Below, piece after piece: positions 41,407-61,208 of a stretch of DNA of 64,000 nucleotides. Source of the DNA: Natrinema halophilum. Its GTDB lineage: Archaea > Halobacteriota > Halobacteria > Halobacteriales > Natrialbaceae. Within the stretch, counting starts at the first letter, position 1. Every line of letters begins with the position of its first letter. Made by a program: the position numbers and the translations under genes. The DNA is taken from assembly GCF_013402815.2 (NCBI RefSeq), contig NZ_CP058601.1, positions 558,001 to 622,000 of the forward strand, given 5' to 3'. A model generated the notes under the pieces. That model worked only from the letters and a program-made list of their open reading frames with translations, was not told the origin of the DNA and did not search any database.

Positions 41407-42123
41407 TTAGGCCACCTCCCGGATTGATCCCGCAGTGATCGGCGTCGGATACGCCGGCTCACGCGCCGCGAGTATCTCCTTCCAGAACGCGAGTGTCGTC
41501 TGGACCATCCCGTTCCCAACCGGATACACCAACGACTCGAACTCCCCACCGATGAATCGAGCACCCTCGTCGGTCTCGAGACACTGGATCCGCTCGTCGG
41601 CGAGGTTGTCGATCGGCGCTGTAAACTCATCATCGCGAGCCTTCGAGACCAGCACCGGACACTCATACTGCCGAGCCGCAGCAGCCAGTCGGGCGAGGGC
41701 AGACACGACCGTTCGCTCTGATTCGTCCTCGTCGAGATCGTCGTCCCGATAGAGGCCATCCACCGCCGGCACCACGATCAGGCCGACGTCGTCTCGATCG
41801 ACGCTCGCAAACACACCGTAGTCGGGATCCTCGAGCAATCGCTCGCACAATGTGTAGTGCTGGTACGCAGTGAATGTACGAGCGATCTGGATCTTCTTCA
41901 GGACACGCCGACTCGGTGCGACGTCTGCAAGCGGCGCGGTCTGTGCGTGGCCATGCGTGTCGATCCACCACGCCGTTCCCGGCCGCTCGAGGAGGAGATG
42001 GTCGACGACGAGTGCGTGGAACGCACCTCGTGAGGATGATTTCAGGACCGTGACACCTTCCTCGAGAGTTGGAAGGTTGGGAATCTGGTCAATCGACGGT
42101 ACGACGTCTGTATTCCCACCCAT
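41407..42123 (-). CDS. RecA-like fold protein of unknown function
   Basis: A 238-aa protein starting MGGNTDVVPSIDQIPNLPTL. A strand-loop-helix (VTVLKSSSRGAFHALVVDHL) stands where a P-loop would be but lacks the GKT signature, and GLIVVPAVDGLY resembles a Walker B strand. The C-terminal LVYPVGNGMVQTTLAFW is well kept in haloarchaeal relatives as I recall them. It is probably a degenerate RecA/KaiC-fold protein. It is followed without spacing by the frameshifted small gene. Confidence 0.6.
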   Translation of the reverse strand: MGGNTDVVPSIDQIPNLPTLEEGVTVLKSSSRGAFHALVVDHLLLERPGTAWWIDTHGHAQTAPLADVAPSRRVLKKIQIARTFTAYQHYTLCERLLEDPDYGVFASVDRDDVGLIVVPAVDGLYRDDDLDEDESERTVVSALARLAAAARQYECPVLVSKARDDEFTAPIDNLADERIQCLETDEGARFIGGEFESLVYPVGNGMVQTTLAFWKEILAAREPAYPTPITAGSIREVA

Positions 42124-44111: not shown

Positions 44112-45857
44112 ATGGACATAAAACTGGGTAAAGACACGAGTGTTCTATTCATAACAGTTGATGCTGCCCGCGCCGACGTTATGGGCAACAATTCAGGTAG
44201 CCCTTCTCCAACGCCGTTCATCAATAATTTATTTGAAAATAACTTCACTCTGGATTCCTGTTTTAGTACCGGATACCCGACTCAGTTTGCATTACCTGGT
44301 TTGATCACATCGACTCTACCGCTTGATTATGGTGGATACGACAAAGGTATTTACACACGGCCTTCATCGATATCGGAACCATTCGAGCAACACGGAATGG
44401 ATACTATCGCGTTTGTGAATGGATTTGCACCAAATTCTCTTTTTGGGTACGACCGAGGATTCCAGCGGTTTCACCACTTCAATAGTTTAGCGTCGATCCT
44501 GGGTAGCTTTATGAATATTTATACAAAATATTATGCAGAGAGGGAGTTCTCCAGTTCCAAATCTAGTGGTTTCTCTTCATATAAGGAATTCGTCAAACGT
44601 TTTTTTCCATTCCTTCGAAAATGGTGTGAAAAGAGAAAGAGAGAAACAGACGAAGGTGATGGAAAATTACCGTTTCTTTCACCAAGGTTGCACGACATCA
44701 ATTGGGAGAGGGCCATTTCAGTAATTGAAGCGGCTATAGAAGAATACGAGGAAAAACAGGACCAGTTTGTTCGTGATTTGATCAAGGACTATCCAGAGAT
44801 CGATGCTATTGAATCATTGCGAGATGCAGAGAATTGGAACGGTATTGACCTCGCGTTTTCGAGGATACGGCGTCTGGAATTCCAAGCTCTCAAGATGATA
44901 GGTGGGACGAATCCGTACTTCGTTTCGGTAGCCAAGAATGAAGGTTTGAAACCAAGTTTAAAAGAGATCAAATCTTGGGCAGAAGCGCCACTAATATCAC
45001 CTGGTAGTTCCTCATGTGGGTATATTTTTGCAAACCTTTTTAATTATATACAAGATACGGAGAATTCCTTCTTCGCATGGACTCACCTCATTGACGCTCA
45101 TTCTAATAATTATTTCTCATGGGAGATCAGCGACAGTTCATGTCCATTTCCTCATATGTCTAATACATTGGAAAGAGAGTTGTTATCACATCTTCGTTAT
45201 ATGCGATCCATGCGACCGTGGCAATTAAATGGCTCTCCAAAATACGATTTAGGTCTCCGTACTATTGATTTGAATCTAGAAAATTTCCTGAACAGGGTGT
45301 ACGAGTCAATGGACAATCCTCCTCTAGTAGTTATTACAGCTGATCACGGTCATGAAGTGTTACCATCCCGGTCTGGCCATCATGCAACTCATTTCTATGA
45401 CGAGTTATTGCATATTCCGGTTGCTTTCGTTCATCCCTCAATGCCGTCCGAATCGTTCGAAGGTTTGTGTTCTTCGATGGATATTGCCCCGACGCTTTTC
45501 GACATACTAGGATTCAATATCCCATCGGGCTTTCAAGGAACTCCAGTATCACAGTTATCAAAAAAGGGACGTGAATACATCATTGCAGAAGATTATGGTA
45601 GAGGTCCGATTGATCCAGTCAAGAAGTCACCAAACGTGTGTATTCGCTCTGCTGAACGCAAGATTGTTTATTCTCCAACCGAGTCAAGTGACCTTGATAC
45701 CGAGATAAAATCTGCTTACAATCTTGATTCAGATCCAATGGAGCTAGAATCTATAGATATTGATGATATCAATAAACGGTTTGACATCTTGGTGGATCGT
45801 GCTCGGACCCGTTGTAAGGAGATTGAGGAGTCAATCGCAACTCGTCACGAGTTATGA
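44112..45857 (+). CDS. Alkaline-phosphatase-superfamily (sulfatase-like) protein
   Basis: A 581-aa protein of the sulfatase/phosphoglycerol-transferase part of the alkaline phosphatase superfamily. Metal-binding elements are visible: SVLFITVDAARADVMG at the N-terminus and VVITADHGHEVLPSRSGHHA with THFYDELLHIPVAFVHP at the C-terminus. The nucleophile site reads FSTGYPTQFALPG, with threonine in place of the sulfatase Cys/Ser. GC is clearly lower than in its neighbours, which suggests recent transfer. Such enzymes remove or transfer sulfate or phospho groups on surface glycans; either is possible here. No signal peptide is seen. Confidence 0.75.
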   Translation: MDIKLGKDTSVLFITVDAARADVMGNNSGSPSPTPFINNLFENNFTLDSCFSTGYPTQFALPGLITSTLPLDYGGYDKGIYTRPSSISEPFEQHGMDTIAFVNGFAPNSLFGYDRGFQRFHHFNSLASILGSFMNIYTKYYAEREFSSSKSSGFSSYKEFVKRFFPFLRKWCEKRKRETDEGDGKLPFLSPRLHDINWERAISVIEAAIEEYEEKQDQFVRDLIKDYPEIDAIESLRDAENWNGIDLAFSRIRRLEFQALKMIGGTNPYFVSVAKNEGLKPSLKEIKSWAEAPLISPGSSSCGYIFANLFNYIQDTENSFFAWTHLIDAHSNNYFSWEISDSSCPFPHMSNTLERELLSHLRYMRSMRPWQLNGSPKYDLGLRTIDLNLENFLNRVYESMDNPPLVVITADHGHEVLPSRSGHHATHFYDELLHIPVAFVHPSMPSESFEGLCSSMDIAPTLFDILGFNIPSGFQGTPVSQLSKKGREYIIAEDYGRGPIDPVKKSPNVCIRSAERKIVYSPTESSDLDTEIKSAYNLDSDPMELESIDIDDINKRFDILVDRARTRCKEIEESIATRHEL

Positions 45858-45892: not shown

Positions 45893-46705
45893 ATGCAGAA
45901 AGTCTACCGGTACAATAAAAACGAATCGTACTGGGAAGATAGATGGGAAAACGCCGGTGTAGACAAGCAAACGTTTGATCGGCTCGATTTTTATCCAATA
46001 AAATACGCAAAGATGGTTATTGACGACCTCTCACCGTCGTCGGAAATCCTTGAGGCTGGCTGTGGTCCCGGTCGTCTCTACTTCCATTTCGACGAGAGGG
46101 GGTACGACATGACTGGCGTCGACTTTAGTTCCACTGCGATCGATCACATACGGGAGATAGATCCCGATGCAGATGTCGAAGTAGCCGACGTTCGCGATCT
46201 CCCGTTTCCAGACGAATCGTTCGATGCTGTGCTAGCTTTTGGGCTCTTTCATAATTTCGGTGATCCCCAGGACCTCGCGGCGGCCTTCTCCGAAACCGCT
46301 CGAGTTCTGAAACCGGGTGGTCGCATCGTGCTCTCTGTTCGATGTGACAGTCTGGAGAACCACCTCATCGAGTACATAACAGCGTGGAAATCCGAGCAAC
46401 GTGGTGAAAAAGAGTTTCACAAGCTCCACTTCACTAGAAACGATGTCGAGTTTTATATAACGAGCACCGGGTTAACCCTGAAAGATGTAGAATTCGCCCG
46501 AAACGTGTCCTTCCTGTTTAAATTCGATTCGCTGCGTGCGCCGCACATGCGGGGCGAGAGCTTTGACGAGTCCGTGGCCCGAGCGAGCGGATTCCAACTT
46601 TTCGAAATTGGGGACGCGATTGACACGACCCTCCATACCCTCTTTCCGAAGCAGTTCTCTAACGAACTTGTCGCGTTCGCACAGAAACCCGAGACCGAGG
46701 GGTAA
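45893..46705 (+). CDS. Class I SAM-dependent methyltransferase
   Basis: A 270-aa methyltransferase: motif I ILEAGCGPGRLYFHFDERGY, acidic motif II (TGVDFSSTAIDHI), and post-motif region LPFPDESFDAVLAFGLFHNF. It lies 35 bases after the sulfatase-like gene on the plus strand and converges with the glycan cluster on the minus strand. If the cluster makes a phosphoramidate as in Campylobacter, this enzyme could add the O-methyl group; the substrate is otherwise unknown. Confidence 0.85.
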   Translation: MQKVYRYNKNESYWEDRWENAGVDKQTFDRLDFYPIKYAKMVIDDLSPSSEILEAGCGPGRLYFHFDERGYDMTGVDFSSTAIDHIREIDPDADVEVADVRDLPFPDESFDAVLAFGLFHNFGDPQDLAAAFSETARVLKPGGRIVLSVRCDSLENHLIEYITAWKSEQRGEKEFHKLHFTRNDVEFYITSTGLTLKDVEFARNVSFLFKFDSLRAPHMRGESFDESVARASGFQLFEIGDAIDTTLHTLFPKQFSNELVAFAQKPETEG

Positions 46706-46744: not shown

Positions 46745-47497
46745 TCACGAGTCGTATCTGACAAACACGTCATCAGCCGCCATCCGTTCGGAAACCCGCT
46801 CGTGATCCTCCGGCGAATCGATCGAGTATGTTTCGCGGTCTGTCTCGACTACGTGGACGGGGTGGCCGTGCTCAAGCAGGCGTAACATATCGATTGACTC
46901 CGCGGCCTCCAAAGGCGTTTCCTCAAGTTGGGTGTACTTACGGAGGAGTTCGCGCTCAAACGGGACCACACACACCTGGTGAAAAACCGGGACAGATCCG
47001 TATCCAGTTGAACGGAGGTATGGAATGGGTGCACGGGTGAAGTATAGTGCCGCCCCGCTCTCATCGACGACTATCTTAATGCTGTTCGGATCCCGATGTA
47101 TCTGCTCGTCCCGTATCGGTCTCCCGAGGTTAGCTACTCCGACATCCTCGCGCTCTTGTACTGCCGAAACAGCTTCGTCTATCATTTCCGGAGTGATCAG
47201 TGGCTCATCAACGTGTACTGCAACAATGATGTCTGCGTCAAAAGACTCTGCCGCCTCTGCGACGCGATCGGTTCCCCGCTTATGGACTCCAGTGTCAATA
47301 GCCTCGCCACCGAATGATTCTGTCGCGTCCCGGATTTCAGAGTCGGGCGTGGCAACGTATGTCTCGTCGACTGACGGACTCAGCTGACACCGTCGATAGA
47401 CGTGCTCCACCATCGGCAGTCCCCGGATGTCACAGAGGGGCTTTCCGGGGTATCGAGTAGAATCCATCCGAGCAGGAATGACAGCTGCGACTTGCAT
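46745..47497 (-). CDS. CMP-sugar synthetase (KdsB-like cytidylyltransferase)
   Basis: A 250-aa cytidylyltransferase of the 3-deoxy-manno-octulosonate / acylneuraminate CMP-transferase family. The N-terminal VAAVIPARMDSTRYPGKPL is the CTP-binding loop, followed by GVHKRGTDRVAEA and VHVDEPLITPEMI (metal-binding Asp). The C-terminal HPVHVVETDRETYSIDSPED fits KdsB. It activates an acidic sugar with CTP. The true start is 47497 (MQVAAVIP). It follows the formyltransferase gene after 127 bases, perhaps from its own promoter. Confidence 0.88.
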   Translation of the reverse strand: MQVAAVIPARMDSTRYPGKPLCDIRGLPMVEHVYRRCQLSPSVDETYVATPDSEIRDATESFGGEAIDTGVHKRGTDRVAEAAESFDADIIVAVHVDEPLITPEMIDEAVSAVQEREDVGVANLGRPIRDEQIHRDPNSIKIVVDESGAALYFTRAPIPYLRSTGYGSVPVFHQVCVVPFERELLRKYTQLEETPLEAAESIDMLRLLEHGHPVHVVETDRETYSIDSPEDHERVSERMAADDVFVRYDS

Positions 47498-47624: not shown

Positions 47625-48377
47625 TCACTCCTTGACGCGAAGCATCGTGAGGTGCTTGAGGACGGGGTGAACGATAAAGTACGTCTCCCCCTCATCGGTC
47701 CGTTGGGGCCGCCTGTCGAGTTCTCCCGTTTCCTCGTACTGCGAAAGGACGTCGACCAGGAGGCGCGACCGAATCCACGGATCGTAGTACAGATCCAGTG
47801 TCTCGGGATTCTCGGGAGGGGGATACACCTGCTGGCCGACAACTGGCCCTTGGTCAATCTGCTCATTCATAATAAATGCCGTCGCCCCACATTGTCCGTC
47901 CGCGAGAAGCGAGTAATAGACGGTCGTGCTGCCCCGGTAGTCGGGCAGTATCCCAGCGTGCACGTGCAGAAACTCTGGTCCAACGGTGAGCACGTCACCG
48001 TCCAGGATCACCCCGCCCGGCCCCGAATATACCAGCAGATCCTGATCGAGCTCCCCCACGGCTGCGACAACCGCGTCGTCGTTGGGGTTCAAGGTTTCGA
48101 CAGTCTGGTAGGGCACACCGGCGTCGTCGAAGCGCTCTCGAACGGACCGGTTGGTCTCTAAGTCCGGATCTTCGGGCAGGACTGCGTCGTCGTTGCTGTC
48201 GTCGTCGGACGCGTCCTCGGACTGACGGCGGCGTTGCTCGGCCGTCTCGGTCATCGAGTCGACCAGACAGATCGCAGTTTCGGGCAACAGGTCGTTTCGT
48301 TCCAGCACATCCAGGTAGATCCGACTCCGATTCGACGGCGCAGCGAGCATGGCAACGTTCGACATCACGTCGCTCAT
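47625..48377 (-). CDS. Formyltransferase-family protein
   Basis: A 250-aa protein of the methionyl-tRNA/sugar formyltransferase fold. FLHVHAGILPDYRGSTTVYY and the later EQIDQGPVVGQQVYPP match the N10-formyl-THF transferase core, but the usual Asn of the NxH pair is His (HVH). An internal acidic insertion (SEDASDDDSNDDAV) is present. Sugar N-formyltransferases occur in surface glycan clusters. Start 48377 (MSDVMSNVAM), overlapping the upstream gene by four bases. Confidence 0.75.
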   Translation of the reverse strand: MSDVMSNVAMLAAPSNRSRIYLDVLERNDLLPETAICLVDSMTETAEQRRRQSEDASDDDSNDDAVLPEDPDLETNRSVRERFDDAGVPYQTVETLNPNDDAVVAAVGELDQDLLVYSGPGGVILDGDVLTVGPEFLHVHAGILPDYRGSTTVYYSLLADGQCGATAFIMNEQIDQGPVVGQQVYPPPENPETLDLYYDPWIRSRLLVDVLSQYEETGELDRRPQRTDEGETYFIVHPVLKHLTMLRVKE

Positions 48378-49093
48378 TGCTCTACCCCCACAGACGTCGC
48401 GAGCGCCTGCATGGCATCGCGTTCGACAGCCAGCGCGAGATACGTCACCGCAAGCGTCCCCTGGTCGTCGATCGACTCGTGCCTCGAAGAGAGCAGGTCG
48501 CCGAGTTTGAGTGCCACGTTTAGGTACTTGAGGTTCCCCGTGCGTTCGTGTGAGACGAGCGCGACGAGCGAAAGGAGCGGATACGCGACGCACGGCGCAG
48601 GCTCGTCGTCGATCGGGTCCATGTCACTGTCGTATCTGGCAGAGAGGCGCTTGTCGACCTCGTACCGTTTGGTCAGGCAGTCGAGCCATGTTCTAGCGAT
48701 CTCCCCATTGAGCGGTCGGTCGCCGGGATAGCCGAGCAGGGACGCCTCGAGTTCGACTGTCTCAATCTGATCGACCTGGTCCCGGTCCGGGACCTGTCCG
48801 AACGCCGCTGTGAATTCGGTGACATCCGATTTCGTGCGCGACTCCAATCTCGGGAGTGACCGTTCAATCTCCCGGGAGGGGTCCGTTCCGACCGCCTCGA
48901 GGAGGCCCCGCCAGTGGGAGGCGTCAGACGAACAACGCCCGGAGACAGACGCCTCGATACTGTCGAGGACGGACGCTCTGTCTCGTTCGTACGCGTCGAG
49001 AAACGGGCGGCCGTGTACCTCGCTGTACTCGTAGCTTTCCGGTTCTTCAAGCAGATCACGGTCGGTGTACTCGTACGGGATGTTCGGTGTCAT
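48374..49093 (-). CDS. Uncharacterised protein of the phosphoramidate-type cluster
   Basis: A 239-aa protein starting MTPNIPYEYTDRDLLEEPES. It is soluble and mostly helical; residues about 165-225 (AYPLLSLVALVSHERTGNLK) suggest a helical repeat. No catalytic motif is recognised. It overlaps the APS-kinase-like gene upstream and the formyltransferase downstream by four bases each, so it is a core member of the operon. Confidence 0.7.
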   Translation of the reverse strand: MTPNIPYEYTDRDLLEEPESYEYSEVHGRPFLDAYERDRASVLDSIEASVSGRCSSDASHWRGLLEAVGTDPSREIERSLPRLESRTKSDVTEFTAAFGQVPDRDQVDQIETVELEASLLGYPGDRPLNGEIARTWLDCLTKRYEVDKRLSARYDSDMDPIDDEPAPCVAYPLLSLVALVSHERTGNLKYLNVALKLGDLLSSRHESIDDQGTLAVTYLALAVERDAMQALATSVGVEQ

Positions 49094-49611
49094 GGGAACG
49101 GTGAGTCGTCGGGAAGTGCGTCCAGAATGCGGTCGGCGAGCACGTCCGGGTCCGTCGGTGGGTCGTCGTTTTCGAGGACGAGATCGGGGTCTTCCGGCGT
49201 TTCGAACGGGATGTCGACGCCGACGACGTTTTCGATCTCGCCCCGTTCGGCCCTGGCATAGAGGTCTTTCGCGTCGCGTCGCTTGAGCGTCTCCATCGGG
49301 ACCTCGAGGTACACCTCGAAGTACGACGAGAGGTTCTGGCGGTTCCACTGACGGTGTTCCTTGAACAGTGAGAGGACACAACAGACCGCGTGGATGCCCT
49401 GATCGTCGAGGAGTTTCCCGAGACGACAGTACCGCCAGCCGTTCTCGTACCGGGCTTTCTCCGTGTGTCCGATGTCGTCTCCCCAGACCTCTCGGAGGTG
49501 GTCTCCGTCGAGAAAGAGGACGTCGTTTCGCTCGCGTTTAATCTTTTTGTAGAGTTCGTGACCGACTGTCGTCTTCCCCGCAGACGAGAGTCCGACGAGC
49601 CAGAGTATCAT
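49090..49611 (-). CDS. APS-kinase-like protein; candidate CDP-amidate 3'-kinase
   Basis: A 173-aa P-loop kinase that standard annotation would call CysC: Walker A ILWLVGLSSAGKTTVGHELY, FLDGDHLREVWGDDIGHTEK and YFEVYLEVPMETLKRRDAKD. No ATP sulfurylase is present. In Campylobacter jejuni the homologous gene (Cj1415) is a cytidine diphosphoramidate kinase, adding phosphate to the 3' hydroxyl of CDP-NH2. Since homologues of the other three pathway enzymes lie directly upstream, that role is preferred here. Overlaps the downstream gene by four bases. Confidence 0.75.
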   Translation of the reverse strand: MILWLVGLSSAGKTTVGHELYKKIKRERNDVLFLDGDHLREVWGDDIGHTEKARYENGWRYCRLGKLLDDQGIHAVCCVLSLFKEHRQWNRQNLSSYFEVYLEVPMETLKRRDAKDLYARAERGEIENVVGVDIPFETPEDPDLVLENDDPPTDPDVLADRILDALPDDSPFP

Positions 49612-49619
49612 CCTGCTAT

Positions 49620-50444
49620 CTATCCGGAAAACTCCGACCGGTCGATATTAAGCGTACCGTCCTCCGTCGGCGTGCATACGGAGCGAGCGATGTCGAGGTC
49701 GCGTGGCGTGTCTATCTCGACCCACCCGCCCTGGATTCGGGCTGCGTGGACCGGCACGTCACGCTCGATCATCCCCTGGAGGAGATCCGTCATGTGGATG
49801 TCCTCGAAGGACCGTTTGGTCCCCGTCGATCGGACGCCCTCCGCTTCGGCGCGTTCCAGCGCCGCGTACGTCTCGCGGAGGCGATCAATCCCCGCCGGGG
49901 AGAATTTCATCAGTCCGATGTACTGGGCCTCGGGTGCGTCGATCGACTCAACCCTCTCTCCGATAGACGTTATCCGATCGCCGTCGAAGGCGAGGCTCTC
50001 GGCGTCTTCGACGGGTTCCTCGTGGCGGCGCGTCCAGTAGGACTGCCAGTCCTCGTCGACGGCGACGACGACATCGCGTGGGTCTTCGAGGACCGTTTTG
50101 AGCACTGTCGGCGTATAGAGGATGTCACTGTATGAGATGACGACTGTCCCCTCCAGCGAGTCCGATCCACACCAGAGCGACCGCACCATATCCGTGTTCG
50201 CGTAGTCCGGGTTCCGGTGGATCGTGACATCGTCGTCGACCTGGTCGTCGATGCTGTCACCGAGGTATCCAGTGACGACCGCCCGATCCTCGATACCGGT
50301 GTGTCGAGCGGTGTCCAGCAACCAGCTCAGAAGCGACCGGTCTGCGACGGAAACCATCGCTTTCGGTTTGTCGTCTGTGATCGGGCGGAGACGAGTACCT
50401 TGACCGGCGGCCAGACAGAGCCAGGTGACGGCGTCGGCTACCAC
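49620..50444 (-). CDS. Nucleotidyltransferase; candidate CTP:phosphoglutamine cytidylyltransferase
   Basis: A 274-aa nucleotidyltransferase (sugar NTP-transferase fold): CLAAGQGTRLRPITDDKPKA is the nucleotide-binding loop, DILYTPTVL holds a metal-binding region, and HMTDLLQGMIERDVPVHAAR and GGWVEIDTPRDL close the domain. The likely start is the GTG at 50444, inside the end of the upstream gene. In the Campylobacter phosphoramidate pathway the enzyme of this type (Cj1416) joins CTP and L-glutamine phosphate to CDP-L-glutamine; gene order supports the same role. Confidence 0.78.
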   Translation of the reverse strand: MVADAVTWLCLAAGQGTRLRPITDDKPKAMVSVADRSLLSWLLDTARHTGIEDRAVVTGYLGDSIDDQVDDDVTIHRNPDYANTDMVRSLWCGSDSLEGTVVISYSDILYTPTVLKTVLEDPRDVVVAVDEDWQSYWTRRHEEPVEDAESLAFDGDRITSIGERVESIDAPEAQYIGLMKFSPAGIDRLRETYAALERAEAEGVRSTGTKRSFEDIHMTDLLQGMIERDVPVHAARIQGGWVEIDTPRDLDIARSVCTPTEDGTLNIDRSEFSG

Positions 50445-51088
50445 GTAAATTCCCCCTCTAGAAAGCGCGTGACGAGTCGGTCGAGCGGCTCGCGATCCGG
50501 GAGTGGTCGCTCCGGGTGCCACTGTATCGTGAGGACCGGTCGGTCGGGGTGATACAGCCCCTCGACGATCCGACCGCCGTCCGCGAAGGCATACTGTTCG
50601 AGTGGTGGTGCAACACCCTCGGGTGTAACGCCCATGTCGTGATATGAGTTGACAGTGAGCGACTCACCGACCATCGAACGGAACGGCTCTTCTTCTATCC
50701 GCATCCCGTGCTCCGTCCCTGCGTGTGCCCCGTGGTCTACGTGTTCTTCCACGGCGACGATGTCACCGCCGTAGTAAGAATTGACGAACTGGTGGCCGCG
50801 ACACACACCCAGCACTGGAATGCCCTCCTCGACCACACTGTCGATGAGTGCCCGCTCGGTCCGGTCACGGGGTCGATGTGAGCCGATGTCTTCACCGTTG
50901 GTCAACACCAGCGCATCCGGTGTGACGTCCTCGACGACTGTCGACGGATCCGTGTGGGTGTTGGCAACCGGGATCACGGTTATCCCGTGGTCGTCCAGGT
51001 AGGAACTCCAGTCGCGGCTGAGTGAATCGCGGAGTTCGCCCGTTGCCGGGTCACGGATCGAACGCATCGTGGCTAGAATACAGCTCAT
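50438..51088 (-). CDS. Class I glutamine-amidotransferase-like hydrolase; candidate CDP-glutamine amidohydrolase
   Basis: A 216-aa class I glutamine amidotransferase (peptidase C26-like). The nucleophile cysteine sits in GIPVLGVCRGHQFVN, and the catalytic histidine and glutamate in LTIQWHPERPL. In Campylobacter, Cj1417 of this fold cleaves gamma-glutamyl-CDP to glutamate and cytidine diphosphoramidate. Here the gene begins one base after the glutamine-kinase-like gene and overlaps the cytidylyltransferase gene, so a matching function is likely. The start is the ATG at 51088 (MSCILATMRS). Confidence 0.8.
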   Translation of the reverse strand: MSCILATMRSIRDPATGELRDSLSRDWSSYLDDHGITVIPVANTHTDPSTVVEDVTPDALVLTNGEDIGSHRPRDRTERALIDSVVEEGIPVLGVCRGHQFVNSYYGGDIVAVEEHVDHGAHAGTEHGMRIEEEPFRSMVGESLTVNSYHDMGVTPEGVAPPLEQYAFADGGRIVEGLYHPDRPVLTIQWHPERPLPDREPLDRLVTRFLEGEFTW

Positions 51089-51089
51089 G

Positions 51090-54000
51090 TTAGTTGATTT
51101 TCTCGAAGGTCCCGTCGGCACAGTTGAGTTCGACGACCTCAGCCCCGGTAATATCTTCATAAACGACCTCGCCACAACCTATCGCAGCTGGGAGCCCGAA
51201 CTCGGCAGCTCTGATCGCCATGTGTGAGGCGACGCCGCCGTACTTCGTGATGAGACCGGCGATGTCCGAGCCGAATATCCAGTCGTAGCCGGGATCGGCC
51301 GACGGGATCATCGCGATGCGTCCGTTCAACTCGTCAGGACTCAGGTCTTCGCGTACCTCGACCTGAACGACAGGTGCCCTGGCGGTCTCGTTGGTGATGT
51401 AGTTGGGCTGTTCGGACTTGACTTCGAACGCCCGCACCTCCGATGAATCCCGGATCACGGGTGGAAGCGTGATGCGGTCCTGGATCTGTGCGCGCTTGCT
51501 ACGGTAATTGATAGTTCGGTCGAACTCACGTGACAGTACCGGTGAGGGGTTGGTCGTTGCGGACTGGCAGATTTCCTCGAACGTGAGAGCGGCCAATTCG
51601 TCCGGTTCGAGGTCGTGATACTCTCTTCCGCCCCGACGAAGTAACGTGAGTGCCGCCGAGAGGTTCTTCGTGAACTCAAACTTTGCCAGTTCGCGAAGCG
51701 GGATCGACTCGGTGATGAACGAGATCAGTTCGTCGACGGTGAACGTGAATCCCTCGTCCCGAATGAGTGCTCGAATCCGGTCGCGCGAGTCCTCGAAAAC
51801 CGCCTCCGCCTCCGGAGATAGCGTCGGACTCCACTCGGTCAACTCTGACTCGCGGTCCCGCTCGAGTGCCAGCGGATCCGCATCGAGGCCCCCGTCCACG
51901 TCGAAGTACCCGGAAGGATCCTCGTCGTACCGGGGCGAACAGATGTCGTAGGTTCCGGGCCTGAGATGACCGTATTGCGTGAGAAAGTCCGATTCGTCAA
52001 GTTCCCCCTCGCGCAGTAGCTGCATGTCTGTCGCCAGTTCCTGAGCGATGGTTGGAACCCCCTCCGATATCGTCTCTATCTCTTCGTCGGTGAGGACGCC
52101 CCGCTCGCCGAGAGACCGGAGAAACACGGTTCCGATGAATGCATAGCGGGCGAGAATCGAAAACGGGAGTGTCCCGAACTCGCGGGCGTCGTCGAGAAGG
52201 TGAGTGACGCATCTGATGGTGTCAGACCAGGTCTCCCACTCGTCGTCGAGTAACTGCTGTCGCCGGTCGGCCAGTCGCACGAGGCGGTCACACTGCGTTG
52301 CGATCGGTGCAACGTCCCCGGTGACGATGTCGTCGGTGAGTTCCCGCAGGTGCCGTCGCAGCGTCGCTATTTCCTCGTCTGTAAACCCGGCGTCTTCGAG
52401 TTGTTCCCGGCGCTCGTCGAATGCAAAGTCCAAGCACGTGAACGCGACATCGAATTCGACTTTGTCCTGCAGGTCTGGCTCTGCGGAGAGTCGGTCGACG
52501 TAGTGTTCTACGAGTCGACAGCCCAGGTCGTCCGGGAGCGTCGCTGGGAGAAAGCTGTTAAAGTCGACGAGTGTGTCGATGTACGGTCTGCCAGCGAGCG
52601 TCACCATCAGTGGCTCGGGCCGGACGTCCCGATAGCCGGACTCTGCGCGAGCCCGCGCCCACACGTCGTCAGTAATCAGGTACTCGTAGAGTGAGGTGGC
52701 GAGTAGATCCGGTTCGGTCCCAATCATTTCGGCCGGGTTCCAGTCGGGCATCACGCCGAGAACCGTGCCTTCGCCCAGCACCAGTGGACGAGACCGCTGG
52801 AGTCCTTTGATCGTTTCGGCGACACTTTCGAGTTCGTCAGTGACGTCCCGCGTGTCGTACCGGTCGGCTCCCGTGTGGACCGCGAGCGGTCGCACCTGTA
52901 GGATCGTCACCGTACCGTCGTTATCGACGACGAATTCGACATCTAACGGCGGGTCATTGAGGAGATTGCGTAGTTCTTCGACAGCCGCTCTGACGGACGC
53001 GAGGGAACTATCTCCCTCGAATGTCCTTATCCCGTCCAGTCCATGCCGAAAATACGCCGTTCGTTGACTGGATCCCTCGCCGGCCGTTACAGTGTCGGTA
53101 CGCCCGGTCGTATCGTCGTAATTGATGACGGTGTACCGACCACCCGAGTCGAGGTCTCGCGTGAACGCGACGCCACTCATCGCAACGTCACTGACCTGGG
53201 GCTGGATGAGAACCTGGTCTTCGTCGGCCCGACCGGAGCCGTCCTGGAGACTCTCGACGACCCGTTTGATACTGTCTGTGAGAGCGCGTTTATCTGTCAG
53301 ATCAACGTCGAGTGCGGTGTGAAACGCCCCGGCCTGTGAATCGTGCCATCCGTCCTCGACCACAGCGCTACTCCGGACGACGATGGGATCACTCGAGAAC
53401 GAACTCTGTATGCGATCGACGACACCCTCAGGCGTCTGCTCCCAGGTCGCCACGTCGAAGACGACCTGGTCTAAGATATTCGCTTCCTCGAGGATACCGT
53501 CAAGACGGGCTAACGTATCGGCTTTCGTCCCGAGGAGGAATCTCCCGAGGGCGTTCTGTCTATCGTATGTCTGGACTGTCTCCTCGACTTCCAGCGCACA
53601 GACGTCGGCAGACGAAAGGGTAGCGACGACGTCGTAAAATGACGGGGCCGCCTCATTGTCGGCCCTGGACAACTCCATCACAGCAGACCGAAAGCGCTCG
53701 GTACCACGGTCCGATACCGACGCGGCGCCCAGAAGTCGCGCATCCGGCGGTTGGTCGTCCGGGACGTCCGGCTGGACGGTCCCGTCCTCGAGGAGAACGA
53801 GTTCGTCTTCGGTGAGCATTCGCTTTGCCTCCTGTGCCGCCTCATTTGTTGGGAACCGGGAGACGGCCACTGTGACGTCGCAGTCGACGTTTCGCAGTCG
53901 TGTTATCGCTTCCGGCTGGAGTAGCGTCTCGCCAGTCACGACAATAAGATCACCTTCGAGTAATTGCTGATACTGGGCCAGACCGGATATATTGCTATCA

Positions 54001-54248
54001 TTTTCCCACTCGGAATCATAGTAGTACTCGATCTCCGGGTGCGTCTCAACGAGTTTTTCCACGTGATACCCTGCGAGACAATTTATTTCGTCGATGTCTG
54101 CTTGTTTCACGGCCTCGATCTGACTATCTATAATGGCCTGCCCTTGGGGCGTCTCTACAAGTGGGATCGGCTTGCTTTTCTGAGCGTCAAGCCGTCTGAC
54201 TCCGCGTCCAGAAGCCAAGAGGAGTGCCTGAGTTGGTGACTCGTTCAT
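51090..54248 (-). CDS. Glutamine-kinase-like PEP-synthase-type protein with N-terminal nucleotidyltransferase domain
   Basis: A 1052-aa multidomain protein. Residues 1-215 form a nucleotidyltransferase-like domain with a variant loop (LLLASGRGVRRLDAQKSKPI). Residues about 225-475 are a PEP-synthase/PPDK-type ATP-grasp domain (DPIVVRSSAVVEDGWHDSQA; VEFVVDNDGTVTILQVRPLA). A long helical middle follows. Residues about 955-1052 are the phosphohistidine swivelling domain with the catalytic His in GGVASHMAIRAAEFGLPAAI. Without the N-domain the length (about 837) is close to Campylobacter Cj1418, L-glutamine kinase (ATP + Gln to Gln-phosphate + AMP + Pi). The following genes match its pathway partners. 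Confidence 0.8.
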   Translation of the reverse strand: MNESPTQALLLASGRGVRRLDAQKSKPIPLVETPQGQAIIDSQIEAVKQADIDEINCLAGYHVEKLVETHPEIEYYYDSEWENDSNISGLAQYQQLLEGDLIVVTGETLLQPEAITRLRNVDCDVTVAVSRFPTNEAAQEAKRMLTEDELVLLEDGTVQPDVPDDQPPDARLLGAASVSDRGTERFRSAVMELSRADNEAAPSFYDVVATLSSADVCALEVEETVQTYDRQNALGRFLLGTKADTLARLDGILEEANILDQVVFDVATWEQTPEGVVDRIQSSFSSDPIVVRSSAVVEDGWHDSQAGAFHTALDVDLTDKRALTDSIKRVVESLQDGSGRADEDQVLIQPQVSDVAMSGVAFTRDLDSGGRYTVINYDDTTGRTDTVTAGEGSSQRTAYFRHGLDGIRTFEGDSSLASVRAAVEELRNLLNDPPLDVEFVVDNDGTVTILQVRPLAVHTGADRYDTRDVTDELESVAETIKGLQRSRPLVLGEGTVLGVMPDWNPAEMIGTEPDLLATSLYEYLITDDVWARARAESGYRDVRPEPLMVTLAGRPYIDTLVDFNSFLPATLPDDLGCRLVEHYVDRLSAEPDLQDKVEFDVAFTCLDFAFDERREQLEDAGFTDEEIATLRRHLRELTDDIVTGDVAPIATQCDRLVRLADRRQQLLDDEWETWSDTIRCVTHLLDDAREFGTLPFSILARYAFIGTVFLRSLGERGVLTDEEIETISEGVPTIAQELATDMQLLREGELDESDFLTQYGHLRPGTYDICSPRYDEDPSGYFDVDGGLDADPLALERDRESELTEWSPTLSPEAEAVFEDSRDRIRALIRDEGFTFTVDELISFITESIPLRELAKFEFTKNLSAALTLLRRGGREYHDLEPDELAALTFEEICQSATTNPSPVLSREFDRTINYRSKRAQIQDRITLPPVIRDSSEVRAFEVKSEQPNYITNETARAPVVQVEVREDLSPDELNGRIAMIPSADPGYDWIFGSDIAGLITKYGGVASHMAIRAAEFGLPAAIGCGEVVYEDITGAEVVELNCADGTFEKIN

Positions 54249-54400: not shown

Positions 54401-55668
54401 TTAGAACGTCGAAGGGGTTGCTCGGGGATTGGGGTCTTCTGCCGAAACAGCCAACGCCAGTGCATCAACGCAATCATCATGGAATCCAGATGGGGAAGTG
54501 TATCGGACCCGCCCTCGTTCGCTCGTCTGTGATTCATAGACTTGGAGTTCGTTGATAAGCGTCTTCACAGACTCTGGGATCGTAATCCGTCCAGCTTCGA
54601 GTTCGGTGGTCAGGTTCTCGATCAGCGTTCGTTTGTTCGCAGGCGAAAATCGGACTGGATCGACGAAGTATCCGCTGTCCTCGAGATCATGAACGATTTT
54701 GTTATCGCGAGTAGCATCGAGAACGGTCGCGCTTGGCGTGTACGTATCCGCGAAACGTTCGACTGTCTGCTGGATTCGTGTCCACGTCGTTTGCTGGAGA
54801 CGCTTGAACGCTACAATCCGACCATCAGCATCGAGAACGACGATAACGGTCCAGTCTTCAACACGGGCAAAGTTGACGCCGATCGCATACGGTCCGGTGC
54901 TTTCAGCGGCGCTCATAGGAAGAAAATATGACTCAACATTGCGTTTGCGTATGTTCTGGAAGACACCACTCGCATCGTCAACAAACTTCGCGAGATATTC
55001 CTGTTCAAATACACAGTCCGGCATATCGTCGCGTGCAGCGGCCACCTCCGAATTGGGGATATGTGGGTTCTGATGCGTTGGGACTTGGAAGCTCGCGACG
55101 TCCGGATAATCATCTGACTGCCCTCGTTTGAACCATCGATAGAACCAGTTACGGCCCTTCGGGGTCCCGATAGCAATCATATCCTCCTGGGAATCCGAAA
55201 GCGTCGGTCGAAGTTCCTCAGCCCACGCCCGCTCGGGAACAGATGCACTCTCGTCGATAATGAGGAAGTCAACACCGCCTCCACGAAGAGAGTCTTCGCG
55301 CTCAGCCGATCGAAACGAATTTTAGAACCGTTCATTAGCTGCAGTGCGCGTGGCTTCGCCCGTTTGGGCTTGTCAGCGAGAATAGCCGGCGACAGTAGTG
55401 GCATCATTTTATCGAAGCCATAGTGGTTGGCATCGTCATAGGTGGGCCCGCACCACCAAACATTGGATCCAGGGTTCTCAAGCGCACGCTGGAGACCATG
55501 ATGAGCGCACATCTCGGACTTTCCCCACCGGCGGCCACAGGCAACAATTCGGAACCGTGCCGGATGGTCCATGATAGCCTGTTGCCCGGGATGAGGTTGA
55601 CACAATGTTCTGAGGATACGCTGCTGATCCTTGGTGTCCATCGTGTCGTCAGAACCCGCGTCACTCAT
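54401..55668 (-). pseudogene. Terminase large subunit, frameshifted
   Basis: Two frames together give a full terminase large subunit of about 422 aa, the DNA-packaging motor of tailed viruses. The first (from MSDAGSDDTM at 55668) has Walker A RIVACGRRWGKSEMCAHHGL and runs to GSKIRF. One missing T in the TTT run near 55312-55320 throws it out of frame. The second carries Walker B (VDFLIIDESASV), IAIGTPKGRNWFYRWFKRG and the nuclease domain (ATVLDATRDN, FHDDCVDALALAV). As written the motor cannot be made as one protein. Confidence 0.8.
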
Positions 55669-56230
55669 CGTTTTCACCTCCTGACGAGTCGATTTCGATC
55701 GATGATGGTGCCGACGTGAATCCGAGATCTTCGTAGTCGACATCGCCAGTCGTGGTGGTAGGTAACGATTGGTCGTCACCGTCACGGACAGTCTGATACG
55801 CGACGTCAAGATTCCGCGATTGCATCTCCACGTCAACCGATGACTGCTTCGGTTCTCGATGCTGAGCACCGAGGTCGGCAAGCCAGTCGTTCCAGTCCAT
55901 AACAATATCCCAGGCTGCTTTCGTTGCCTTCCAGTCGTCTTCATCAAGTAGCTCCTCGGTGATTGTCTCGAAGAGAACTCGCGTCGTCAGTTTCGCATCG
56001 GCACCAAGATGGGCATCAATCGCCTGCTTGAGGCGAGTCATGTCCCTCGAGATCGTCGAACGATGCACACCGAATCGTTCAGCCTCGCGGGCCTGTGTAA
56101 TAGCATACGGTGAACCAGCCTCGCGGATACGATGCAACAGCGCGGCTCTGCGTTCGTGGTGTGTGTACTCTTCAATCGGCTTGTTTTCGGGCAGTTTGAG
56201 TGCCGTGTAGTTCGGTAAATCTTCGGTCAT
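55661..56230 (-). CDS. HTH protein, probable terminase small subunit
   Basis: A 189-aa protein with a helix-turn-helix at about residues 40-70 (REAERFGVHRSTISRDMTRL) and a C-terminal region that would contact the large subunit. It starts at 56230 (MTEDLPNYTA) and its end overlaps the terminase large subunit start by eight bases. This order (small then large subunit) is usual in tailed viruses. The identification rests on position and HTH, since small subunits diverge fast. Confidence 0.7.
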   Translation of the reverse strand: MTEDLPNYTALKLPENKPIEEYTHHERRAALLHRIREAGSPYAITQAREAERFGVHRSTISRDMTRLKQAIDAHLGADAKLTTRVLFETITEELLDEDDWKATKAAWDIVMDWNDWLADLGAQHREPKQSSVDVEMQSRNLDVAYQTVRDGDDQSLPTTTTGDVDYEDLGFTSAPSSIEIDSSGGENDE

Positions 56231-56397: not shown

Positions 56398-58567
56398 CAA
56401 TCGGGGGACTCACCCCCGTAGCAGCGGTCCGCCAATCCCACTCGCTCCTGCTTGCGGTATCACTCCCGGAGCTATCAATCCCGCCGCAGCGTTCAGGTTC
56501 ACGAATCGCCAACGCCCACCTATTAGATACCTCATAAGCGTCCGTTGGCGATTCATCGCCGATGTCGACAATACCCCGCGTCGGGAGCCCGTCGTCGCTG
56601 TAAAGCGTCGCGCCGTGCTCACCCGTACCTTCGAGTGCGTCGGCGAGGTCACCCTCGCGGAGTGCGTCGAACGCCTGACGAATATGTTCTTTCGAGCAAT
56701 CGACAGCGTCGACGATCTCTCGGGCGGTGAGCGACCCGGGCGCATCACGCAGCTCGTCAACGACGGCCTCCTGAAGATCGGTGTAGAGCCACTCGACGCC
56801 GGGCACTTCGACATCGACGAAGCCAGTCGGCGCGGCGTCAGTCCACAGGTAGACGGTCGCGGTCGCGTCGGGATTGTCGGGGCTCCGTGCGTATCGGCCG
56901 CCAGCCTGGGCGACGTGGTTCTCGCGAACACTCGCAAGGATGGCCGCCGCCTTATCGGCATCCGATCCCTCGAACCCACGACCTCGTGCACGGTACTCGT
57001 CGCCGTCGTCGTCGACGGCCGTCTCAGGTTCGGCCATAAGGTCAAGTTCAGCAAGCAGGTCCAGCACGTAGTCATCGACGGGATCCATACAGCCGTTCAC
57101 GAATCCCACGGCCTCGCCGGCGAAGTCGTTCCTCGATTTTTCCTCGCCATAGTGCATCGTTTCTGGGCTGATGCCAGCCTCACGCATTAGGCGCTGAAGG
57201 TCTTCCTCAACCTGCGCTGTCGTGATGGCGGTCCCGAAGTCTGCGCCGTACTCGGCACGAAGATGCTCGATGAGCGCGCACAGATGATCCTCGTCGAGCC
57301 ACTCCTGGGCTTTCTCGCCGGAAAGTGGCCGTGTAGCGTCGCCGACTTTGACGACACGAAGGCCTCGCTCGTAGCGCCGCCAGAGACGCCGTTCTTCGGC
57401 GTCGAGCACCTCAGCGGTATCGATCCAGGGGACGGTGTTAGCCTGCCAAACCGGCACCGCGGGGTGGGCGTCAAGCCCGAGCACACTCCGGGCCGAGGAG
57501 AAGTCAGGGGTAATGCGGACCTGGCGCACATCGTTGGATTCGTCGAGTACGACAGTCACCCACTCACGGTTCCAGTCCCCATCCTCACGAGCAGCGGCAT
57601 CAAGACGCGGCGGTTCGTTAGCGGTTTTGCCAACACGCCGTCCGTTGCCACGATCCTCGGACCGAAAGATAGCCCGTGCGAGTGCCGGCACGAGGACATG
57701 AGCGTCCTCGTGCTCGATGAACCACTCACGGTCGGGGTCCCGGTCGAGTGTGTAGTCAAGCGCATCGCGTTCGGTGGCGGCGTCGTCAACATAGTCCTCA
57801 TGCTGGGACAGCGAGACGAGCGCCTCCCAGGTGCTCACGGGTGCGTCGATCTCCTGAAGATATGCGGTGACCGCCGTCCGAACGCGCTCGGTCGACAGCT
57901 CCATGCGGAAGTCGGGTTGCTCGTCGATGATAATGTTGTTACCGTGGCGAAGCCCGGGTGCAAACGAGAAGTTATGGGTCGCAATTACAAGTGGCCAGTC
58001 GTCCTCATCGTCAAGGTCGCCTGAGGGACCCTCATGATAGCGTTCCCACTGCGTAATGGCCTTGCAGGAGTCACCACCGCATGGGAGCTGGGCGAAATCC
58101 TGGTCGTTGTGCTTTTGGACGTACTGATGGGCGGTCGAGAAAGGGAGGCCTTTGTGCTCGCACAGTCGGTCGATGACCTGTGACGCCGGCTCATCGTCGA
58201 CGGTGACGATTTGGCGGTCCTCGTCGTCGCACTCACGAACCTGCCGGGGATCGTGGTCGCCAGCACAGACTGGACAGGCCTCATGACGGCCGCGGAGGAC
58301 GTGGAACTGGCCACCCTCCTCGTCAGCAACCTCGATGGCCTCGTCGCGAGCATCACAAGTTTCGAGCAGGTGAACCACCGGACGACCGCCGGTGATGTCA
58401 TCGCGAGCATCCCACCGGGTACTAGAAATCTTGTAACTCTTGCCGATTGAGGTTGGGGCGTCGATGACACGGTCATCCTCGTGACGAATTACTTCTTGGA
58501 TGGTGTCCCGGAGACGGTCGCGAGCGGCGTCGGTGCTGGGCCAATCAAGGCCTCGTTTCCGAGCCAC
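56363..58567 (-). CDS. Helicase-like replication protein (probably 3' part of a primase-helicase)
   Basis: A 734-aa protein beginning VARKRGLDWPSTDAARDRLR (GTG start) with a Walker A-like VIDAPTSIGKSYKI near residue 42, a cysteine pair CPVCAGDHDP, and the Walker B-like strand NNIIIDEQPDF. It fits superfamily 2-type helicases of haloarchaeal viruses. A C-terminal winged helix (SLTAREIVDAVDCSKEHIRQ) is visible. Its coding frame is open upstream of the GTG into the primase (through QLDALAPHERKR), so the two are likely one gene split by a frameshift near 58650. Confidence 0.7.
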   Translation of the reverse strand: MARKRGLDWPSTDAARDRLRDTIQEVIRHEDDRVIDAPTSIGKSYKISSTRWDARDDITGGRPVVHLLETCDARDEAIEVADEEGGQFHVLRGRHEACPVCAGDHDPRQVRECDDEDRQIVTVDDEPASQVIDRLCEHKGLPFSTAHQYVQKHNDQDFAQLPCGGDSCKAITQWERYHEGPSGDLDDEDDWPLVIATHNFSFAPGLRHGNNIIIDEQPDFRMELSTERVRTAVTAYLQEIDAPVSTWEALVSLSQHEDYVDDAATERDALDYTLDRDPDREWFIEHEDAHVLVPALARAIFRSEDRGNGRRVGKTANEPPRLDAAAREDGDWNREWVTVVLDESNDVRQVRITPDFSSARSVLGLDAHPAVPVWQANTVPWIDTAEVLDAEERRLWRRYERGLRVVKVGDATRPLSGEKAQEWLDEDHLCALIEHLRAEYGADFGTAITTAQVEEDLQRLMREAGISPETMHYGEEKSRNDFAGEAVGFVNGCMDPVDDYVLDLLAELDLMAEPETAVDDDGDEYRARGRGFEGSDADKAAAILASVRENHVAQAGGRYARSPDNPDATATVYLWTDAAPTGFVDVEVPGVEWLYTDLQEAVVDELRDAPGSLTAREIVDAVDCSKEHIRQAFDALREGDLADALEGTGEHGATLYSDDGLPTRGIVDIGDESPTDAYEVSNRWALAIREPERCGGIDSSGSDTASRSEWDWRTAATGVSPPIDVRERSRTMGD

Positions 58568-59796
58568 GCGCTTGCGCTCGTGTGGAGCGAGCGCGTCAAG
58601 CTGGCCGATGGAAGCGTCGACATCGCACGACTGTTGATGTCGTTCTTGTCCTCCTGAAAGGCAGCATCAAGCAGTTCGGGAAGGTTTTCGTCACGGCCGT
58701 ATTCGTCGTCGCCGCTTTGCTCGGGATCGTAGTACCAATCTTGGTAACCGACCTCCGAAAGCACCGAAGCGCGATAACTTCGGTCGGGTCGTTCGGGCCA
58801 CTTCTGCAGGTTCGAACGGTCTATCAGCCGCTCAACGACCGCGCGGTTACCCCGACCGACCCACGAGTCCAGGCGGTTCGCAAGCCAGATCTCTGCGGAC
58901 GACCGGTCGTCGAAGCCGGCGGCCCGATACCGGCCATTATAGACCTTCCTGATACGATTACCGTCATGACTGTTCTGGAACGCGCGCTCAAGACGCTTCT
59001 GGACAGTGTCGTCGTCAGGGGGGTCACCCTCATCCTTGAGGTCGATGGTCGTCGGGCCACTGTCGCCGTCCCTATCGCGACGACTGGACGCTGGGCGCAT
59101 CGAATGGTTTAGGTCCTTGTCGGCAAGGGTTGCGATGTCGCGGTTCTCAACGAGATGGTAGACGCCCCCGGTCGGATGCACGGATCCAGGCGCGACGACA
59201 TACCTGTTCTCGGCACGAATCTCACCGACGTTGTCGTCGACGCGGGCGTTCTGGACATCGCCGGAGTTCCGATAAGTCTCGTGGTTGCCTCGACCGGAGC
59301 CCGAGAGCATTTCGAGCGTCGGATCGGCGGTCGGCGTCGGGAAGCTATCGTCGTCGTGGTCGATGAAGACGGCGTCTTCGGTACCGTGGTCAGCCTTGCC
59401 GGCGTAGATAGCGAAGCCGCGGGCGCCTTCCTCGCGGATCTGGCGGACGGCCTCCTGGCCGTCGACGAGGAACGATCTCCCCACAGGGCTGTCGAGCTTG
59501 GCGCGGCCCTTGATAATGGGCGCCTTCCCCTCGTCATCCAGGGGCATGAGCTGCGGGATGCTGCCAAACTCGTCGACGAATCGCTCTAGGTACTCGCTGA
59601 GCATATCGGCGCGCTTGGCATCGGTCACGTCTGAAACGTCGATGGGGTTCTCGTGCTCGCCAGTCGTGTCGAATCGGTCGTCGCCAGTGGTGTCGTCGCC
59701 CCCCGGAGTGCAGTCAGCGCAGATGTAGGCATTGCCGAAGCGCTCAAGTTCCTCGGTCGTGCCACAGCGGAAGCACTCCGTCACGCCGACCACCAT
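58489..59796 (-). CDS. Primase-polymerase (AEP) protein, 5' part of a split primase-helicase
   Basis: A 435-aa protein with an N-terminal zinc ribbon (CFRCGTTEELERF...CADC) and a bifunctional primase-polymerase domain: PIIKGRAKLDSPVGRSFLVD, the metal motif DAVFIDHDDDSFPTPT (DxD) and NRYVVAPGSVHPTGGVYHLV with its histidine. A helical region follows (DRSSAEIWLANRLDSWVGRG). The last 55 residues or so, after about AAFQED, are probably out-of-frame missense: the helicase frame reads GGQERHQQSCDVDASIGQL over the same DNA. It is the first replication gene of the provirus. Confidence 0.8.
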   Translation of the reverse strand: MVVGVTECFRCGTTEELERFGNAYICADCTPGGDDTTGDDRFDTTGEHENPIDVSDVTDAKRADMLSEYLERFVDEFGSIPQLMPLDDEGKAPIIKGRAKLDSPVGRSFLVDGQEAVRQIREEGARGFAIYAGKADHGTEDAVFIDHDDDSFPTPTADPTLEMLSGSGRGNHETYRNSGDVQNARVDDNVGEIRAENRYVVAPGSVHPTGGVYHLVENRDIATLADKDLNHSMRPASSRRDRDGDSGPTTIDLKDEGDPPDDDTVQKRLERAFQNSHDGNRIRKVYNGRYRAAGFDDRSSAEIWLANRLDSWVGRGNRAVVERLIDRSNLQKWPERPDRSYRASVLSEVGYQDWYYDPEQSGDDEYGRDENLPELLDAAFQEDKNDINSRAMSTLPSASLTRSLHTSASAWLGNEALIGPAPTPLATVSGTPSKK

Positions 59797-59978: not shown

Positions 59979-61208
59979 ATGACCGCGAACCCGGGAAAGT
60001 CGATCAAACGCCTCCGAAAGCGGATCGACGAGGCCGAGGACATGAGCCAGGACGATGCCGAAGCGCTCCGACGGATGTCGGATACGATTCGTATCCTCGG
60101 ACCGTCGAAGTACTCTGATTTCGCTCACGAGAAGTACCTCATGCGAGCCGTAAAGATGGCCCAGGAAGTCGGCGGGCTCGCAGACGCCCTCGAGGACCGC
60201 GCGGCGGCTGAACAGTTCGTCGCTTGGATCAATACAGAGAAGGCCGACTCGCCAGAGACTAACAAGGACTATCGCGTCACCCTTCGCCAGTTCGGCAAAC
60301 TCGCCAGCGACGATGACGACGTCGACGAAATTCCCGAGAGCATCGAATGGGTCCCTGGTGGCTATCCCAACAACTACGATCCGGCGCCGGATCCCGGAGA
60401 GATGCTCCGATGGGAACAAGACATCCTCCCGATGATCAACGCCTGTTCGAATCTTCGCGATCGCGCCCTCATCGCCTTCGCATGGGATCTCGGACCGCGT
60501 CCGTTCGAGCTGTTCGATCTGACACCGAAGCAAATCTCTGACCACAAATACGGCCTCCAGGTTACCGTCGACGGGAAGACAGGCCGGCGATCGCCCGTCC
60601 TCATCCCGTCGGTCCCCTACGTCAACCGGTGGCTCGAGGTCCATCCCGGTAGTGGAAGCGATCCGCTCTGGTGTAATCTCAACTCTGGCGACTCGATCTC
60701 GAACAATCGAATCCGAGACATCTTGAAAGAGAAGGCGCGAAAGGCTGACGTCGACCGACCCGTCACGCCCTCGTACTTCCGAAAATCCTCGGCGTCGCAT
60801 CTCGCGAGTCAAGGAATCTCCCAGGCACACCTCGAGGACCATCACGGCTGGACCCGTGGGTCGGACATTGCTGCCCGCTACGTCTCGGTCTTCGCCGATG
60901 CGAACGATCGAGAGATCGCGAAGGCGCATGGGATCGACGTCCAGGAGGACGAACACGAGGACCTCGCACCGCTGGTCTGCCCTCGATGCGATCGAGAGAC
61001 GCCCCGTGAAAACGAGGTCTGTGTCTGGTGCGGCCAGGCTCTCTCCCAGCGGGCGATCGACCAAGATAACGAGCTCGAGCGCCGATGGATGGAGACGGCT
61101 GGCGCGGTGGCCGAGATTGAGGACCTCTCGCTTGATGAGGTCATGGAGGCGAAGGACGCCGTCGACGAGAACGCAGCCCTTCGGCAACTGCTCCTCGAAG
61201 ACGACTGA
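59979..61208 (+). CDS. Tyrosine recombinase / integrase with C-terminal zinc ribbon
   Basis: A 409-aa phage-type integrase. An N-terminal SAM-like core-binding domain (YLMRAVKMAQEV; AAEQFVAWINTEKA) precedes the catalytic domain: first Arg in FAWDLGPRPFELFDLTPKQI, second Arg in TPSYFRKSSASHLASQG (the usual His of HxxR is Tyr), His/Trp in LEDHHGWTRGSD and the nucleophile Tyr in AARYVSVFAD. A zinc ribbon (CPRCDRETPRENEVCVWC) and an acidic helical tail follow, common in haloarchaeal integrases. It integrates or excises the provirus. Start 59979, preceded by a palindrome. Confidence 0.9.
   Translation: MTANPGKSIKRLRKRIDEAEDMSQDDAEALRRMSDTIRILGPSKYSDFAHEKYLMRAVKMAQEVGGLADALEDRAAAEQFVAWINTEKADSPETNKDYRVTLRQFGKLASDDDDVDEIPESIEWVPGGYPNNYDPAPDPGEMLRWEQDILPMINACSNLRDRALIAFAWDLGPRPFELFDLTPKQISDHKYGLQVTVDGKTGRRSPVLIPSVPYVNRWLEVHPGSGSDPLWCNLNSGDSISNNRIRDILKEKARKADVDRPVTPSYFRKSSASHLASQGISQAHLEDHHGWTRGSDIAARYVSVFADANDREIAKAHGIDVQEDEHEDLAPLVCPRCDRETPRENEVCVWCGQALSQRAIDQDNELERRWMETAGAVAEIEDLSLDEVMEAKDAVDENAALRQLLLEDD

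Follow-up and report, generated by a model that had tools for sequence, protein, structure and literature searches.

The stretch of DNA analysed here (the window), 64,000 nucleotides from the haloarchaeon Natrinema halophilum, contains an operon that likely follows the Campylobacter route to an activated phosphoramidate, starting from glutamine, ATP and CTP (rough probability 0.82), with the substrates and products being inferred from homology. The support for this core pathway, comprising homology, gene order, conserved residues, gene fusions and a phylogenetic tree, is directly observed. Known biology offers few examples of P-N bonds. In the characterised pathway, glutamine, ATP and CTP are converted into CDP-phosphoramidate 3'-phosphate (PMC11800397), and phosphoramidate glycans have been found in Campylobacter capsules and, in unmethylated form, in the lipopolysaccharide of Xanthomonas and Shewanella (PMC3907429).

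The operon consists of six minus-strand genes arranged head to tail, encoding KIN, GAT, NT, APSK, X and FMT with successive gaps of +1, -7, +8, -4 and -4 nt. These genes and their neighbours beyond FMT are:

51090..54248, minus strand: KIN, 1052 aa, probable glutamine-kinase-type protein of the Cj1418 family (PPDK_N and PEP-utilizers domains)
50438..51088, minus strand: GAT, class I amidotransferase fold, Cj1417 type (GATase/Peptidase C26)
49620..50444, minus strand: NT, 274 aa, phosphoglutamine cytidylyltransferase-like, Cj1416 type (NTP_transf_3)
49090..49611, minus strand: APSK, 173 aa, CDP-amidate kinase type, Cj1415 (APS_kinase)
48374..49093, minus strand: protein X, 239 aa, conserved helical family (no Pfam/NCBIfam match)
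47625..48377, minus strand: FMT, formyltransferase-like, with HxH replacing the usual NxH active-site motif (PF00551)
46745..47497, minus strand: CMP-Kdo-synthetase-like cytidylyltransferase (NF009905, 265 bits, cut-off 255)
45893..46705, plus strand: SAM methyltransferase, converging on the operon; family present in 12/101 loci
44112..45857, plus strand: alkaline-phosphatase-superfamily protein, annotated sulfatase, converging on the operon (PF00884)

The original prediction, made from sequence alone, had described four overlapping genes at 49090-54248 as the Campylobacter enzyme set in the order Cj1418 to Cj1415. All four ORFs were found where it placed them, a domain search agreed with its family assignments for all four proteins, and "overlapping" was nearly right given the gaps between KIN and APSK. 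The enzyme set and its order also held, as judged by synteny, the family cut-off passed by KIN and the APSK tree, and the interpretation as a Campylobacter-type P-N pathway is probably correct, with substrates, product and glycan acceptor remaining inferred. The operon was drawn too short, missing X and FMT, which are coupled through the -4 nt overlaps, and an additional N-terminal domain of ~230 aa in KIN was absent from the account. GAT comprises 216 aa from its likely start, the start of the 245-aa ORF falling within KIN. The CMP-Kdo-synthetase-like gene lies 127 nt past FMT and has similar genes in some related loci; it could belong to the same unit.

Residues 234-1049 of KIN scored 821 bits on NF004508/PRK05849 (curated cut-off 501), a model on which the Campylobacter kinase scored 1119 bits and the genome's own PEP-synthase-like protein just 31 bits, whereas models for PEP synthase, rifampicin phosphotransferase and prodigiosin ligase all gave KIN less than 50 bits (best PEP synthase 49). 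In a pairwise comparison, KIN shares 33.7% identity with the Campylobacter protein (481 bits). The residue check proposed with the original prediction was carried out using columns invariant among relatives, not residues named in papers on the characterised enzymes: 59 columns were invariant among 15 relatives, and 55 of these were identical in three Campylobacterota as well. The catalytic residues are kept, and the shared columns include the phospho-histidine His1009 within the motif GGxxSHM, corresponding to His754 of the L148 ORF. KIN is likely a member of the Cj1418-type L-glutamine kinase family, with phosphorylation of the glutamine amide nitrogen being inferred from homology.

The N-terminal part of KIN (residues ~1-230) is an NTP-transferase-like domain missing from the Campylobacter protein but fused to the kinase in many bacteria as well. 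The GxGxR signature is gone from most of the fused N-terminal domains aligned, and is retained in KIN and the Haloferax elongans protein. An HxGH-type domain replaces the N-terminal domain in DPANN, Altiarchaeales and another euryarchaeon (nine loci), and kinases from Acidobacteria have an APS kinase domain in its place. Inspected by eye, the HxGH-type domain appears TagD-like, in place of the GT-A-type domain (L045, L050, L054, L060, L065, L075, L078, L105 and L106).

The best NCBIfam family for GAT was NF045546 (gamma-glutamyl-CDP-amidate hydrolase), with 64.5 bits against a curated cut-off of 250; because the score is far under the cut-off, the protein is here named hydrolase-like and not a family member. 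The Cys/His/Glu triad of GAT aligns with that of the Campylobacter protein, and its gene adjoins the kinase gene. NT, encoded by the third gene of the set, has 33% identity to its Campylobacter counterpart, a complete LAAGxGTRLxPxTxxxPK signature, and CTP:phosphocholine cytidylyltransferase (1jyk) as best PDB match. No curated phosphoglutamine cytidylyltransferase model was found among the NCBIfam matches of either NT or the Campylobacter protein.

APSK scored 178 bits on NF004041 (cut-off 127). In a maximum likelihood tree of 63 proteins, a 100/99 split separated a group made up of the window APSK, 39 further copies from operons and six from Campylobacterota from all 14 sulphate-type samples (those annotated cysC, cysN or nodQ and further haloarchaeal copies). 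Three APSK copies neighbouring operons (L065, L093, L105) grouped with CysC. The loop reading SPyR/TPyR in CysC is S-[MLI]-F...NR in most members of the operon clade. APS kinases are scarce in haloarchaea (4/59 genomes), and the genome has a second one, located beside ATP sulfurylase (C1:1750669-1751768), which groups with CysC. The earlier statement that no sulphate-assimilation partner is present is consequently true for the window only, as ATP sulfurylase and CysC are encoded 1.14 Mb off. Sulphate activation by these two enzymes shares with the operon the APS kinase fold and the logic of 3'-OH phosphorylation; its CysC belongs to another clade and has another active-site loop than APSK, and the genome's set lies elsewhere. 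The surrounding region (L162 2091-7971; C1:1748590-1754470) encodes a sulfatase-superfamily protein, ATP sulfurylase, CysC and a sulfotransferase-like ORF, and this cluster likely serves surface sulphation.

A search for relatives using one genome per species found at least 571 over bacteria and archaea, and the term "archaeal homologue" in the original prediction was therefore too narrow. Its expectation of misleading automatic names was met, with relatives labelled PEP-utilizing enzyme and adenylyl-sulfate kinase. The window, 80 of these relatives and further loci from plasmids, haloarchaea and Campylobacterota made up a sample of 101 loci. Near the kinase, GAT was found in 98/101 loci, NT in 94/101, both in 93/101 and APSK in 49/101, with several of the trio-incomplete loci being cut by contig ends. 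As the trio recurs in 93 of the 101 loci, from many phyla, the KIN-GAT-NT set is not a chance association. Gene fusions were found between kinase and GAT (a gut bacterial contig), APSK and kinase (five Acidobacteria), APSK and X (L087), and X and FMT (L082, L089, L097). The kinase family occurs in nine of 391 haloarchaeal genomes, one copy being a fragment. Glycan gene families (NeuB, DegT aminotransferase, UDP-sugar dehydrogenase or glycosyltransferase) are present in 46/101 loci, and in two haloarchaea (L018, L021) polysaccharide flippases immediately precede the trio. No kinase relative was found in the viral contigs searched, and the operon DNA had no near match on plasmids. One match labelled as phage (MT837632) was discarded, as its ORFs (thioredoxin reductase, PRPP synthetase, MurC-like, DnaC-like) make it look like a bacterial contig.

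The operon has the four enzyme types and their order in common with Cj1415-Cj1418 of Campylobacter jejuni, where the evidence comprises the family cut-off passed by KIN, the shared APSK clade and the catalytic residues; the KIN-GAT-NT-APSK order is also that of the Campylobacterota loci bearing the curated O-methyl phosphoramidate transferase. The window proteins are 27-43% identical to their Campylobacter counterparts. In contrast to C. jejuni, KIN has the extra N-terminal domain, the operon adds X and FMT, no Cj1421/Cj1422-type transferase was found, and the host is an archaeon in which no capsule genes were seen alongside. The kinase and APS kinase of H. elongans (L028) are 61% and 78% identical to those of the window, respectively; its X gene is disrupted, just past the APS kinase, by a transposase ORF (15328-16494 of the locus), and no FMT-like gene precedes the contig end. 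Other haloarchaea, Marinobacter, Pseudomonas marginalis and Vibrio alfacsensis encode the first three enzymes and the fused N-terminal domain, as in the window, but lack the APS kinase; some of these sets include a CDP-glycerol glycerophosphotransferase-like gene. The latter gene type was found in 17 loci, only one of which has APSK (Fisher p 7e-5, to be taken as a guide only, since the loci are related by descent). There seems to be a different downstream route in the absence of APSK.

Protein X was found in 24 loci and is located beside the FMT-like gene in 23/23 FMT loci, 19 of which also have APSK. X is encoded in only two of 341 haloarchaeal genomes, this one and that of H. elongans, which are also those with the APSK-type operon. 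It has no Pfam or NCBIfam family match, and its structure model is helical (pLDDT 80.8) without any match in the PDB at E <= 0.001. Matches to helical toroids reached Z 11.4, which is below the level trusted for helical models, and no fold is claimed. The fold of the FMT domain, tested on the natural X-FMT fusion L089, matches sugar and tRNA formyltransferases (Foldseek E 3.5e-11 to methionyl-tRNA formyltransferase). The active-site motif of formyltransferases is NxH. The catalytic Asn is lacking in this family and His is found instead in 23/23 aligned members, giving HxH in all, with the later Asp kept.

The two genes converging on the operon also offer candidates for downstream steps. The SAM methyltransferase could be an O-methyltransferase; 11 of the 12 loci with this family also have an APSK-type gene. 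The sulfatase-like gene has counterparts overlapping the kinase gene in H. elongans and within the operon in L077. Sulfatases need Cys or Ser at the nucleophile position. As Thr is found there in the window protein and in L028, L077 and L050, a role in phospho-transfer or on phosphoesters is more likely, and the protein is a possible phosphoramidate transferase or esterase. The O-methyl phosphoramidate transferase model NF058596, which does detect the Campylobacter transferase, had no match in four haloarchaeal genomes, nor in the control genomes.

Being homologous to the enzymes of the characterised pathway, the four core enzymes should yield CDP-phosphoramidate 3'-phosphate. In the first step, supported by strong homology, KIN would use phospho-His1009 to phosphorylate glutamine at its amide nitrogen. 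NT would then add CMP to form gamma-glutamyl-CDP-amidate, from which GAT would free glutamate and CDP-NH2, and APSK would phosphorylate the 3'-OH to give 3'-phospho-CDP-NH2, akin to the formation of PAPS from APS. Anything past this compound is inference only and no more than possible: an enzyme different from that of Campylobacter may move the P-NH2 group to an acceptor, most probably a surface glycan, with X and FMT or the sulfatase-like protein as candidates, and the methyltransferase may carry out O-methylation. A glycan acceptor, moderately favoured here, is inferred from relatives that adjoin flippases, NeuB, DegT and UDP-sugar dehydrogenases; the archaeal surface glycan named as target in the original prediction likewise remains an inference, as do the glutamine substrate and the product. 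The points against the main reading are the GAT score under its cut-off, the 27-43% identity, the failure to find a Campylobacter-type transferase in the genome, and the observation that the operon borders provirus genes, with no glycosyltransferase cluster seen next to it; nor was a glycan cluster evident within 18 kb either side of the window when ORFs were read by eye.

Upstream, the operon borders a broken terminase gene, followed by a primase-polymerase (58489-59796) and an integrase (59979-61208), and this upstream stretch is likely a decayed provirus. The large terminase (54401-55947, minus strand) is split over two frames and is a single ORF in the relatives L182 and L184. Since the operon abuts these genes, it may have arrived with, or beside, the provirus. 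Elsewhere in the window, a KwaB-like gene (Kiwa anti-phage family; 39144-40109, minus strand; PF16162, 70 bits) is located ~11 kb from KIN, next to a 225-aa ORF (40146-40823) without Pfam match. A 238-aa protein of unknown function has two closely similar copies flanking the region (41407-42123, minus strand, and L186 8941-9657, minus strand, right of the window), and a TnpB-like protein with a Cas12f1-like TNB domain is encoded at 22549-23802 (plus strand). The N-terminus of a DNA photolyase ORF (25004-26641, minus strand) resembles a twin-arginine signal (ATRRNALRGAG) and is nearly identical to that of a DUF1254 ORF (27744-28700), which might mark a recombination joint or be an artefact of start-site choice.

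Four alternative explanations were considered. The first, which rivals the acceptor and not the core chemistry, is that the operon is cargo of a provirus or island, its product being not a host surface glycan but something such as a toxin resembling a nucleotide or a modification of virions. In its favour are the adjacent terminase remnant, primase-polymerase and integrase, the KwaB gene, and the absence of the operon from all 20 other genomes of the same genus compared; against it, the trio directly follows flippases in two other haloarchaea and is found in glycan loci in bacteria, and we regard it as unlikely. Similarly improbable is that the four enzymes use a relative of glutamine (asparagine or another amide) or another nucleotide, giving a different activated phosphoramidate or phospho-amide. 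The limited identity, the GAT score and the fused NTP-transferase-like domain or its HxGH-type replacement, neither with a Campylobacter counterpart, would fit this, whereas the invariant kinase residues and the gene order shared with Campylobacter argue against it.

That APSK is a sulphate gene which chanced to adjoin a phosphoramidate trio is very unlikely. Its relatives are annotated as adenylyl-sulfate kinase and it scores on sulphate models too, but its 100/99 clade with the Campylobacter and operon copies is apart from CysC, the genome has a separate CysC beside ATP sulfurylase elsewhere, and fusions of APS kinase to the kinase exist. The identification of APSK as a sulphate CysC was rejected on these grounds. 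A nearby sulphate set, which the original prediction had named as refuting its reading, was looked for and found only elsewhere in the genome, with its own CysC. Its other refutation, a best match of KIN to PEP synthase or rifampicin phosphotransferase, corresponds to the reading of KIN as a PEP-synthase-like metabolic enzyme with unrelated neighbours; suggested by automatic names such as PEP-utilizing enzyme, this is all but excluded and was rejected by the scores (821 bits on NF004508, whereas the best PEP synthase model gave 49 bits and rifampicin phosphotransferase less than 50) and the strictly conserved trio.

The preferred reading thus remains a Campylobacter-type phosphoramidate pathway. 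The core chemistry is already known. What is likely undescribed is its occurrence in archaea and how broadly it is spread, together with the fused domains and the X/FMT unit; there is no report of an archaeal phosphoramidate pathway in the literature searched, which left out most subscription journals. A bolder interpretation, which we find more doubtful than convincing at present, is that unnamed phosphoramidate systems are widespread in bacteria and archaea, that X and the HxH-type FMT form a two-protein unit performing a new step on 3'-phospho-CDP-NH2 (e.g. transferring or acylating the P-N group), and that archaeal surface sugars are decorated with phosphoramidate. If the main reading is true, archaea too would make P-N bonds, and this supposedly rare chemistry may be common, its pathway being present in at least 571 contig stretches from many phyla under names like PEP-utilizing enzyme and adenylyl-sulfate kinase. 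The operon would also point to unstudied partner proteins of the P-N pathway. In Campylobacter, the tag influences phage recognition and serum resistance (PMC3907429), and given its effect on phage recognition, the archaeal operon would provide a testable handle on contact between archaeal viruses and their hosts.
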